Source: a virus
Virus record (IMG/VR): IMGVR_UViG_3300025030_000029
Coordinates: 1-41,539 of that record
Strand: one strand, 5' to 3'
Length of the DNA: 41,539 nt
Part shown: piece after piece, positions 13,253-38,006 of the stretch
Layout: the number at the start of each line of letters is the position of its first letter
Numbering within the stretch: position 1 is the first letter of the stretch
Position numbers and translations under genes: made by a program
The notes under the pieces: generated by a model
What the model was told of the DNA's origin: nothing
The model's input: the letters and a program-made list of their open reading frames with translations, nothing else
The model's database searches: none

Positions 13253-13822
13253 CTATTGCAGTTTATTGGCGGGCATCAAAAATCCTTCCCCACCATCAAA
13301 CTTGATCAACGCGGGGCTCGTTTTGCCGGTCGGCCCGATCTGGACGTTCGGCAAATCCACAATGAGCATCAATGCGCGGTTGTTGAAAGTGGTGTTGCCG
13401 ATGTCGGTCTGCTTGTCGGAGTCGTAACCTGTACCGGCGCAGTGGATGCACTCGTCAACGTCACCATTACCATCGCAGGTGTTGCAGTCCATGTTGTACT
13501 CGCTGTAATAGTTGGCAAGATTGACCACCCCGCGCCCGTTGCACTCTGGACAGGTGAAGTCCTTTATTTTGCCCTTGCAGAACTTGCACGGCTGAACATC
13601 GACCACAGGGATGTCATACCAGACTTCGGGAGGCGTTGTCGGATGGCATCTTGAAATGTCCGGCGCGTGATCATTGGCGGGAACATCGGCCCTTTCCGGA
13701 ACTCCTATCGCCAGCCAGCCGTTAGTGGCCCACGTCTTGCCGTTTTGGGTAAACGGGTGGTTCATGCCGTGTCGTTCGGAGTCTTTAACGCAAAATTTTG
13801 ATAGGTCTAAAATCGTATCCAT
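13253..13822 (-). CDS. Protein with DnaJ-type zinc finger
   Basis: A 189-residue protein with four CxxCxGxG-like units at residues 79-85, 91-98, 113-120 and 125-132, the classical cysteine-rich centre of DnaJ. There is no J domain or HPD motif, so it is not a full co-chaperone. Flanking regions (1-75 and 140-189) are beta-like and not recognised. It may hold a protein partner or nucleic acid. The ATG has an AGGGGAGGG site, and a TATAAT box lies about 30 bases upstream. Confidence 0.75.
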   Translation of the reverse strand: MDTILDLSKFCVKDSERHGMNHPFTQNGKTWATNGWLAIGVPERADVPANDHAPDISRCHPTTPPEVWYDIPVVDVQPCKFCKGKIKDFTCPECNGRGVVNLANYYSEYNMDCNTCDGNGDVDECIHCAGTGYDSDKQTDIGNTTFNNRALMLIVDLPNVQIGPTGKTSPALIKFDGGEGFLMPANKLQ

Positions 13823-14137: not shown

Positions 14138-16432
14138 TTACAGCCTGCCGGTGGGCGGGTAAAGTTCCTTGATTAAGGTGGGGTCGCCCTTGTAGGCAAC
14201 GATGATCTTCTGCTCCCGCTTGGGAAACTTGCGGTAGTTAAGAGTTTTCTTTGCTTGGGCGAGTCGGGTGAACTCGCATTCCAGATAGATGATCTTGTTG
14301 TAGATGGAAAGCCCCTGCTCCTTGAAAAATATCTCTGTCTCGGATTCGTGGCAGTGGTATGAGCCGTTTTTGTCCCTGCTATCTCCGGTCATGACCACAA
14401 AAAAGCAGTTATCGTTCATCGCTTCGATTGCCTTCTTGTAACCGGCAAACAGGGTATCTCTGAACCCCTCGTAGGTGTCGATAGAGTTGATTTCCCCCAC
14501 TGGCGATTTGCCGTCGTAGTCGATGTATTTCTCAACTCGGTAGTAGGGCGGGCAACTGAAAACAAGGTCGGGCCGGTTTTCGGGGGTGTAGGTGGAACTA
14601 TCGCTTTTGATCCATTTCGCACTGTCCAAGTCCTGACAGATAGCGTTGTTGGTGTCGCACTGGTTCTGCCGTATCTCGCTCGAGACGTAGTTGTAGCCGT
14701 ATGACCCCGCAACAAAACCCATCTGGACACCGCCGCCGAAAGGGTTGTAAACGTGTTTCCCGTTCTTCGGCATGAAGAACCGCAGGATAACCTCACATGC
14801 GACAGGATCAAGCACGGAAGCATTCCCGTTGAGTGACTTCTTGTTGTCAACCTCAATCACCTTGTCCTTAACCTTGCGGGTCGTTAGCACCACGTTGGAG
14901 AAACCGCTTTCGCCCTGCCAGCACCCTTCACGAGATGCAAACTTGGGATTAGGGACGCCGTGCTTTTCTCCTGCCGCCTCAATCTGCGCGTTCCACTCCT
15001 TTTTCAGTCGTAACCAGTCGCCCTTGATGGAACTCCACACGTTGCACATCGTGATGTGTGCCAAGAGTTTCAGCCTCACATCCTTTTCGTCACCGTAAAC
15101 CATGTATTCGTAGCTGGACATGGTGAGATAGGTTTTAAAGCCAAGGCTTTTAAACCGCTTCGGCGTCTCAAACTTGCTCTTGGGGTCGGTGGTGATAATC
15201 ATCGGGTAGCCGTTCACGTTCTGAGCGATGATAGCTTTCACCATGTTGTCGTAAATGTCGAAGTTGAAACGGTCGGGCCGGATCGTGGATTGCAAAAGGC
15301 AAAACTCTTTTACCTCTTCGTTGTTCTGGAAGGTGAAGAAGCCGCAAAACTCGCCGTCAATCTTGAGGATGATAGCAGAGTGGATCTGCATGTTCTTCCT
15401 GGCCGCACGGTAGGCTATACCGTCCTCAATAGCCAGCTTTGCCACATCATCCTCATAGCCGGAACCGATAACGCTTTTCACATAGAGGTATTCCACTGAT
15501 TGATGCGGTGGTGCGATTACCTTGTTTGCCCTTGGAACGGCAACCTTGTGTTTCGGTGCGTGGTCAAATAATATCCCCTGTATCTCTTCCATTTTCTCCC
15601 CTTTTGTTTGCATGATGGTAGATTGATCTACCCCGCATTGGTCTGGACACTCGCCACAGGTGCCAAGGTACACATTAGGGCAATGCAGCGATACAAACTT
15701 GCCCCCTCCGATAGATTCATTTTTCCGCGTCAAAATGATGTTGCCATTTAAAACATGCTTGTTGCCTTTGGTAGCCCTTAACGGGTTGTCAATGATGTTG
15801 CCAAGAGACATGAGATAGTTTTGTTTGTCGGTGCAATCCTTGCCCCATTCAGTGGCCCCGTACTGGCAGGTAACGACACGGCAAACGCTCTTAACTCCTG
15901 ATGCCTTCACCCGCTTCATTTGTGCCGCTCGGTGTCTTATTTCCGCTTCGGTATCCATGCCGCTTGTGGAAGTGTTAATAACCGCCGACAGTTTTTCGAG
16001 TCGGTAAAGATGGTCGTCCGTCATTTCCAGCCAGTGCTTTGTGATAATAACCGGGATCTTCCCGGTACCCCCCAAAGCCTCACAAACTGAAACGGTGTGC
16101 TCCCAGTCGTGGGAAGGATCGCCAGCCGTGCCAATCCGGTACCATGCGGCGGGATGGTTCTTGACCACCGCGAAACAATCCCCGAAACTTGAACGCCCCA
16201 TTTTACGGGTGATACTGGTGGCAAAGTCTATGCCGTACTGATTGGCGGTCTTGCTGGCGTAGCATTCGCCGTAACAGCCACCGTCTGGATAAGCCTCCAT
16301 GCCCAACGTACAGCCTTTAACCGTGTCACAGTCCAAAACCCCTTTGCCGTTTTCCGAGACAGTAAGAAGTGGTTTGTAGCGCCGAGGATGTAAACCGTCT
16401 ACCTGTGTGCCGAACAAGAGGGGCTGTTTCAT
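14138..16432 (-). CDS. Three-part DNA-modification enzyme: Fe-S/radical-SAM-like, GNAT/Mom-like, methyltransferase
   Basis: A 764-residue protein with three regions. Residues 1-275 are Cys-rich: C35, C41, C53-x3-C57 followed by Y-A-S-K, and C251-x7-C259-x2-C262-x3-C266, suggesting one or two Fe-S clusters like phage gp88/radical-SAM-type proteins. Residues 310-445 look like an acetyltransferase fold (strand G-E-F-C-G-F-F, then F-K-S-L-G-F-K), the fold of phage Mu Mom. Residues 535-750 are a DNA amino-methyltransferase: motif I N-P-F-G-G-G (563-568) and motif IV S-C-P-P-Y (626-630). It probably modifies phage DNA bases against host restriction. The methyltransferase assignment is firm; the other two are inferences. 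Confidence 0.75.
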   Translation of the reverse strand: MKQPLLFGTQVDGLHPRRYKPLLTVSENGKGVLDCDTVKGCTLGMEAYPDGGCYGECYASKTANQYGIDFATSITRKMGRSSFGDCFAVVKNHPAAWYRIGTAGDPSHDWEHTVSVCEALGGTGKIPVIITKHWLEMTDDHLYRLEKLSAVINTSTSGMDTEAEIRHRAAQMKRVKASGVKSVCRVVTCQYGATEWGKDCTDKQNYLMSLGNIIDNPLRATKGNKHVLNGNIILTRKNESIGGGKFVSLHCPNVYLGTCGECPDQCGVDQSTIMQTKGEKMEEIQGILFDHAPKHKVAVPRANKVIAPPHQSVEYLYVKSVIGSGYEDDVAKLAIEDGIAYRAARKNMQIHSAIILKIDGEFCGFFTFQNNEEVKEFCLLQSTIRPDRFNFDIYDNMVKAIIAQNVNGYPMIITTDPKSKFETPKRFKSLGFKTYLTMSSYEYMVYGDEKDVRLKLLAHITMCNVWSSIKGDWLRLKKEWNAQIEAAGEKHGVPNPKFASREGCWQGESGFSNVVLTTRKVKDKVIEVDNKKSLNGNASVLDPVACEVILRFFMPKNGKHVYNPFGGGVQMGFVAGSYGYNYVSSEIRQNQCDTNNAICQDLDSAKWIKSDSSTYTPENRPDLVFSCPPYYRVEKYIDYDGKSPVGEINSIDTYEGFRDTLFAGYKKAIEAMNDNCFFVVMTGDSRDKNGSYHCHESETEIFFKEQGLSIYNKIIYLECEFTRLAQAKKTLNYRKFPKREQKIIVAYKGDPTLIKELYPPTGRL
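15590..15603 (-). promoter_or_regulatory. Internal ribosome-binding site and ATG within the fused enzyme
   Basis: Inside the long ORF the reverse strand reads AAAAGGGGAGAAAATG, placing an in-frame ATG (codon 281, base 15592) directly after a strong Shine-Dalgarno match. It lies exactly between the Cys-rich region and the GNAT/methyltransferase part. A 484-residue product could be made separately. Confidence 0.55.
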
Positions 16433-37334: not shown

Positions 37335-38006
37335 ATGAATATCTACCTCGGCATACCGATGTACGGGGGCGCTCACGGGTTAACCGTGAGTTGCCTCCTT
37401 GCATCCCAAAAGCACCTGATGGAGTTGGGCCATACCGTCATCGTTGACATAGTGGCGGGCGGATCCATTCTCCCCAAGGTGCGCAACGGAATAGTGAAAC
37501 GGTTTATCGACTCCGCAGCCGATGTTCTGGTTTTCATCGACAGTGACATGGTGTGGGAGCCTGAAACCCTGTTGAAACTGGTCAATGCCCCTTTTGACGT
37601 TTCCGTGGCGAACTACCGCAAGCGCAGCAATGAAGTTACCTGGCTGGCAGAGCCTGTTTATGAAGACGGGGAACCGCTCGGCAAGGTCCACAACGGCGAT
37701 ATCTGGTTGCAAACTCGCAGGGCCGGAACGGGGATGATGGCGATTCGGCGACTGACCATCAAAGAAATGGTGGGGTTACTCCCCGATCTGGTTTATGAGG
37801 AGAACGGCGAGTGCATCCCGTGCCTTTTTGATTTTGAGCTGAAAGACGGCCAATACCACGGCGAGGATTACACCTTCTGCCGCCGGCTGGAATCCATCGG
37901 CGGTCAGATATTCATACTGGCAGATGCCTACATAGGTCATGTGGGCCACACGGTCTACGGCGGTAACTACCATGAGTTTCTGATGGGACAAAGAGGTGCT
38001 GCATGA
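37335..38006 (+). CDS. Glycosyltransferase (GT-A, family 2-like)
   Basis: A 223-residue protein with the GT-A fold: strand I-Y-L-G-I-P-M-Y, then the metal- and sugar-nucleotide-binding D-S-D motif (69-71) in V-F-I-D-S-D-M-V-W, and the acceptor-site segment G-E-D-Y-T-F-C-R-R-L. It starts directly after the head-fibre stop and overlaps gp4 by four bases, so it is produced with virion proteins. It might glycosylate a capsid protein or modify the host surface. No sugar specificity is visible. Confidence 0.8.
   Translation: MNIYLGIPMYGGAHGLTVSCLLASQKHLMELGHTVIVDIVAGGSILPKVRNGIVKRFIDSAADVLVFIDSDMVWEPETLLKLVNAPFDVSVANYRKRSNEVTWLAEPVYEDGEPLGKVHNGDIWLQTRRAGTGMMAIRRLTIKEMVGLLPDLVYEENGECIPCLFDFELKDGQYHGEDYTFCRRLESIGGQIFILADAYIGHVGHTVYGGNYHEFLMGQRGAA

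Follow-up and report, generated by a model that had tools for sequence, protein, structure and literature searches.

Radical-SAM-like, GNAT-fold and Methyltransferase Domains Joined in One Viral Protein Probably Involved in DNA Hypermodification

It is already known that radical S-adenosylmethionine (SAM) enzymes take part in phage DNA hypermodification of the M6 type, and that methyltransferases can install handles on DNA, as in the case of CmoX. In Sphaerotilus phage SN1 the genes SN1_017-024 (locus L232 in our set) form an M6-type (Yuavirus) thymidine-hypermodification cassette, which includes the radical SAM enzyme SN1_022 (PMC9476957). In the CmoA/CmoX/CmoY carboxymethylcytosine system, associated with ParBc genes, a DNA methyltransferase homologue installs the handle and another phage enzyme elaborates it (PMC12783734); Mom of phage Mu, a protein of 241 amino acids involved in phage DNA modification, belongs to the GNAT superfamily (PMC7824862). 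Here we analysed the IMG/VR virus record IMGVR_UViG_3300025030_000029 over its positions 1 to 41,539 (41,539 nucleotides, hereafter the window), in which a single gene encodes a radical-SAM-like domain (N), a GNAT-fold domain (G) and a DNA methyltransferase domain (M) in one chain. We suggest that this protein, N-G-M, and its relatives probably hypermodify DNA through the coupled action of M, the radical SAM unit and G. A radical SAM/GNAT/methyltransferase combination, in one chain or in one operon, was not found in the literature searched, most subscription papers lying outside it.

N-G-M shares with the M6-type cassette the use of a radical SAM enzyme in what would be phage DNA hypermodification, and SN1_022 is homologous (blastp, 2e-10) to R, the canonical radical SAM protein that substitutes for N in six of the loci described below. 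The cassette differs, however, in possessing a pyrimidine hydroxymethylase, a kinase, aGPT-Pplases and a pyridoxal phosphate (PLP) enzyme, for none of which a homologue was detected in the window, and in lacking a GNAT-methyltransferase fusion. The CmoA/CmoX/CmoY system resembles N-G-M in the installation of a handle by a DNA methyltransferase homologue for further elaboration, but it relies on a C5-cytosine methyltransferase using carboxy-SAM (Cx-SAM) and on an AMP-forming ligase, and no radical SAM or GNAT protein is described in it (PMC12783734). Mom has the superfamily of G in common with our protein, but neither a radical SAM nor a methyltransferase domain. The phage ParB-methyltransferases (phrog_498/12517; Listeria B054 gp77, Enterococcus phiFL3A gp36, Croceibacter P2559S_66) are homologous to M, with the motif xCPPY in the members read; they carry, instead, a ParB domain where N-G-M has the GNAT, and no fused radical SAM.

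The gene is a single open reading frame (ORF) of 764 codons plus the stop, running from 16432 to 14138 on the minus strand, to which all the coordinates of its parts given below refer; the plus strand is broken by stops there. A sequence-only reading of the window had noticed this 764-residue ORF at 14138-16432, without giving its strand. Homologues of the full three-domain protein were found in many viral contigs, at 60-83% identity, and also in bacterial ones, the latter being probably prophages, and this recurrence allowed us to dismiss a chance ORF. In IMG/VR, relatives of N were found in 174 stretches and those of G-M in 216, while in GTDB there were six clear carriers (Smithella, Spirochaetes, Desulfobacterales, Desulfobacula, Massilibacteroides and one other bacterium) and, beyond these, a diverged relative in Riemerella. 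Pfam and NCBIfam contained no model scoring above its own cut-off for N or G, and the window protein matched no defence system in PADLOC. Searched by sequence only, the PDB gave weak matches for M and G and nothing informative for N, whose pentatricopeptide matches look spurious. Each domain was examined separately (N, residues 1-277; G, 309-450; M, 460-764), and the analysis recovered a radical-SAM-like fold, a GNAT fold and a methyltransferase, the same three enzyme regions that had been recognised from the letters.

The comparison was based on 90 non-redundant viral G-M loci, 89 of which had a radical SAM partner, N or R, either fused or adjacent. N was fused to G-M in 39 loci; where it was a separate gene, it came next to G-M on the downstream side in 31 and on the upstream side in 13. 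Among the 44 separate N genes, 38 overlapped the G-M gene, 5 were within 19 nucleotides of it and 1 was at 614 nucleotides. In six loci N was missing and the place directly downstream of G-M was occupied by R, a protein with the CxxxCxxC motif that matches PF04055 with an E value of about 1e-11. The sole locus with neither N nor R, L123, ends at the contig edge in a second G-M gene. On the G-M tree, obtained by a quick IQ-TREE search with support by SH-aLRT only, parsimony required at least 21 changes of arrangement, and the well supported branches by themselves imply no fewer than 7 changes in fusion state and no fewer than 3 swaps between N and R. The changes of arrangement indicate that the pairing outlives repeated fusion, fission and replacement. 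Thus, from the linkage in 89 of the 90 loci, the replacement of N by R and the repeated rearrangements, we conclude that the association of G-M with a radical SAM protein is nearly obligate. When a conserved extra partner gene was sought around the 90 loci, no other family occurred in more than 17 of the neighbourhoods.

Domain N (15602..16432) is a variant radical-SAM-like, partial (beta-alpha)6 barrel. Its conservation was evaluated, and its AlphaFold model built, on an alignment of 77 homologues. The model, with a predicted local distance difference test (pLDDT) value of 94.4, shows a six-stranded alpha/beta barrel corresponding to a partial (beta-alpha)6 TIM barrel, and the Foldseek matches in the PDB were led by the radical SAM enzymes PFL-AE, MgmA, QueE, EpeE, LipA, HydE and NifB. 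All 77 homologues share six cysteines, C41, C53, C57, C259, C262 and C266, while the identity elsewhere in the domain drops to 31-38%. The stretch C41-x11-C53-x3-C57 (16262..16312), presumably the loop of the [4Fe-4S]/SAM cluster, comes right after the first beta strand and lies, in the model, between the strand 38-40 and the helix 58-65; the spacing C-x(9-11)-C-x3-C is found in 76 of the 77 sequences. The second putative metal site, C259-x2-C262-x3-C266 (15635..15658), is invariant in all 77 in spacing as well as in cysteines, and would hold an auxiliary Fe-S cluster or zinc. With respect to the cysteine clusters read from the letters, C53-x3-C57 and C259-x2-C262-x3-C266 proved to be conserved and C41 had to be added to the first one; C251, which had been included in the second, was instead rejected as a cluster ligand, since it is a cysteine in just 3 of the 77 homologues.

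Profile comparisons connected N to canonical radical SAM proteins. By hhalign, N and R aligned over 169 columns with an E value of 5.8e-5, compared to 0.008-0.66 for the reversed-sequence controls, and N aligned with DUF5131 at the cysteine motif (E 1.9e-4). A few N members showed weak family matches to DUF5131 (8e-4) and rSAM_mob_pairB (3e-4), and also to PA0069. DUF5131 (PF07505) and the radical SAM proteins similar to PA0069 and spore photoproduct lyase have in common with N the cluster motif GC-x-C-x-CYA and, probably, the barrel; by contrast, N remains under all curated cut-offs, shows the C-x(9-11)-C-x3-C spacing and has the extra CxxCxxxC site. The radical-SAM-like character first attributed to N by eye is, therefore, borne out by the fold search, the invariant cysteines, the profile link to canonical radical SAM proteins and the replacement of N by genes of this kind.

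As for the radical SAM of the SN1 cassette, the direct alignment of N with SN1_022 was weak (E 0.022). The radical SAM enzyme of M6-type cassettes acts on a base adduct. R-type genes were also observed in phage regions with ParB genes and a C5-methylase-like gene (L177, L178, L183, L186, L187 and L188), and some neighbours of the R relatives resemble DpdA/TGT and YhhQ, as named by reading of the sequence without a profile test. Near the R-type radical SAM of L186 there is an ABC ATPase, after which comes a GNAT-like fragment; a GNAT-ABC pairing was earlier predicted to acylate DNA (PMC7824862). In Massilibacteroides (L170:7569-7835), the G-M gene is followed by what is apparently a decayed R-type radical SAM, reduced to its C-terminal third.

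Domain G (15083..15508) has the GNAT fold without the coenzyme A (CoA) pyrophosphate loop, and bears AARKNMQ at residues 343-349. Its AlphaFold model (pLDDT 92) has the order b-a-a-b-b-b-a-b-a-b-b, that is, the GNAT topology, and Foldseek against the PDB returned 227 chains at E<=1e-3, led by Gcn5, with GNATs at E 6.7e-6. The middle of the chain had been described as looking like an acetyltransferase, and at the level of the fold this was right; it had been called Mom-like as well, and this kinship was rejected. Indeed, the comparison of Mu Mom with G gave an E value of 0.83 by hhalign and fell below threshold by hmmsearch, none of the 50 best viral fold matches of G was named as Mom, and the match concerns the GNAT fold in general.

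Two loci contain variations on this arrangement. In L123 (5254-5871), the first G-M gene is followed by a second, diverged one, whose GNAT part keeps the CoA loop (KWKGNGLAK) and matches the diaminobutyrate acetyltransferase EctA; a search for further copies of this CoA-competent paralogue recovered its own contig alone. In Riemerella columbipharyngis (L172:5683-7323), the protein has neither N nor G, and its methyltransferase, homologous to M at 54% identity, is fused to another kind of N-terminal domain. This domain weakly matches lysyl-phosphatidylglycerol synthase C (E 0.011), which makes a CoA-free acyl transfer by G conceivable.

Domain M (14141..15055) is a Rossmann DNA methyltransferase of the phage ParB-methyltransferase kind. 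It matched the PHROG phage DNA methyltransferases phrog_12517 (E 2.7e-38) and phrog_498 (E 3.2e-36), and aligned by hhalign with the ParB-methyltransferase of Croceibacter phage P2559S (E 2e-32) as well as with that of Pseudomonas phage ZRG1. In the tblastn search against 50,697 phage records (a copy of INPHARED), the M part alone was matched, mostly within ParB-methyltransferase proteins. PF01555 was matched in 66 of 74 members, with a best E value of 3e-6, the window protein itself being under the cut-off of this family. Motif I, NPFGGG (residues 563-568; 14729..14746), is invariant in our alignment A4 and present in 88 of the 90 loci; in motif IV, SCPPY (residues 626-630; 14543..14557), the cysteine is invariant in A4, and xCPPY occurs in 87 of the 90. 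Both motifs had been pointed out in the sequence-only reading, and homology supports the DNA methyltransferase to which it had assigned them. Motif I agrees with the FxGxG pattern of the N6/N4 amino-methyltransferases (PF01555) and precedes motif IV, as it does in them, but motif IV is CPPY, not (D/N/S)PP(Y/F/W). Amino-methyltransferases usually carry Asp, Asn or Ser before PPY in this motif.

Other enzymes were found joined to the same methyltransferase superfamily. In a clade of ParB-CPPY-methyltransferases (L163:1982-3623, L164:1982-3839 and L233-L312), the gene directly downstream encodes a small AdoMet decarboxylase (SpeD) in 34 of the 38 non-redundant viral contigs, and the clade is a candidate DNA aminopropyltransferase system. 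Motif I is FAGD in this clade and FAGG/FGGG in the relatives without SpeD, a comparison that is biased because FAGD formed part of the search pattern. In Pseudanabaena phage Pam4 (L230:3083-5572), motifs I and IV of a ParB-CPPY-methyltransferase are separated by an inserted PLP (PALP) enzyme domain.

Several observations weigh against the involvement of N-G-M in DNA hypermodification. N or G alone found no match among the same phage records at the sensitivity of tblastn. N does not have the canonical CxxxCxxC spacing, and for this reason it is named here a radical-SAM-like variant; moreover, it exceeds the cut-off of no curated radical SAM model, PF04055 was not among the matches listed, and its best Foldseek match has a modest E value (1.5e-3, with a probability of 1.0 and a TM value of about 0.5), with other TIM barrels intermixed. 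The CoA pyrophosphate loop, (R/Q)xxGx(G/A), was found in 0 of 74 members of G, making ordinary acyl-CoA chemistry doubtful, and CPPY in place of D/N/S-PPY leaves the target atom of M uncertain. In addition, no frame of the window encodes a homologue of the M6-cassette, SpeD, DpdA-like, YhhQ-like, ABC or R proteins tested, so that N-G-M appears to stand alone and further chemistry would need host metabolites.

Hypermodification of DNA, already proposed from the letters alone, is nonetheless kept as the best explanation, and the methyltransferase kinship of M, together with the contexts of hypermodification genes, points to DNA as the substrate. M would bind phage DNA and move a one-carbon (or SAM-derived) group onto a base. 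N, whose C41/C53/C57 would bind a [4Fe-4S] cluster and whose C259/C262/C266 would form the second metal site, would produce the 5'-deoxyadenosyl radical, and the radical SAM unit would activate a C-H of the installed carbon and functionalise that group. G, devoid of the CoA loop, may hold the modified base, or deliver or cap from a non-CoA donor, and the product could be a bulky base blocking host restriction. CmoX/CmoY provide a precedent for a handle that is first installed and later elaborated (PMC12783734). The exact order, with alkylation first and the radical step second, is put forward tentatively. With the same caution we propose the complete scheme, in which a single polypeptide would combine an atypical CPPY methyltransferase placing a methyl or SAM-derived group, a radical SAM domain extending it on DNA and a repurposed CoA-free GNAT, to give a base new to nature.

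The steps could also occur in the opposite order, if the radical SAM and/or the GNAT-fold domain made an altered SAM or another small-molecule donor and M transferred the ready-made group to DNA. In favour of this alternative are the SpeD genes next to the related methyltransferase clade, which would probably use decarboxylated SAM, and the CmoA/CmoX precedent with carboxy-SAM (PMC12783734). M, however, keeps the Gly-rich motif I NPFGGG and not the FAGD of the SpeD-linked clade (with the bias of that comparison noted above), which suggests ordinary SAM as the donor. Since R is, moreover, akin to the cassette radical SAM, with its action on a base adduct, we regard a pre-formed donor as rather unlikely. 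A conventional orphan methyltransferase acting on adenine or cytosine in DNA, to which N and G would be binding or structural accessories with no chemistry of their own, would agree with an M that looks complete alone, a G without the CoA loop and an N without the canonical spacing; but it is improbable in view of the six cysteines retained in so divergent a domain, of the canonical radical SAM that replaced N at least three times and of the partner kept in 89 of 90 loci.

The possibility that the module modifies RNA, for instance tRNA, or protein has to be considered too, because radical SAM, GNAT and Rossmann proteins are often encountered among the enzymes that modify tRNA and peptides, and radical SAM proteins of the PA0069/spore-photoproduct-lyase kind are functionally diverse. 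Instead, M groups with the phage ParB-methyltransferases and with the PF01555 DNA methylases, and the relatives of R adjoin ParB and probable deazaguanine-modification genes, and we consider such targets very improbable. The lowest probability of all is assigned to a Mom-type system, in which the GNAT domain would make N6-(carbamoylmethyl)adenine by itself, like that of phage Mu, and the other domains would support it. The fold and the phage origin would fit, as would an alkylated exocyclic amine, plausible as a product; but the profile comparisons reported above for G gave no similarity to Mu Mom, which was not named among its 50 best viral fold matches either, and Mu is not known to require a radical SAM or a fused methyltransferase.

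Some further genes were observed in the surroundings. In the window, a protein rich in cysteine, bearing zinc motifs of the DnaJ type (CxxCxGxG), is encoded two genes downstream of N-G-M (13253-13822, minus strand), and a glycosyltransferase-like protein, with a weak GT2 match (E 0.0018), lies amid virion genes at 37335-38006. In two relatives (L001:4682-5473 and L032:7167-8129), genes similar to C5-cytosine methyltransferases, assigned by reading of the PCQ motif, are near N-G-M.

The presence of a radical SAM, a SAM decarboxylase or a PLP enzyme next to or within members of the same methyltransferase superfamily suggests, as a general rule, that this superfamily repeatedly recruits small-molecule enzymes, and its members are thus good places to seek new bases. 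If our interpretation is correct, N-G-M would represent a one-protein pathway of DNA hypermodification based on radical chemistry and present in many viral contigs, and would point to a new DNA base together with an enzyme testable from one gene.
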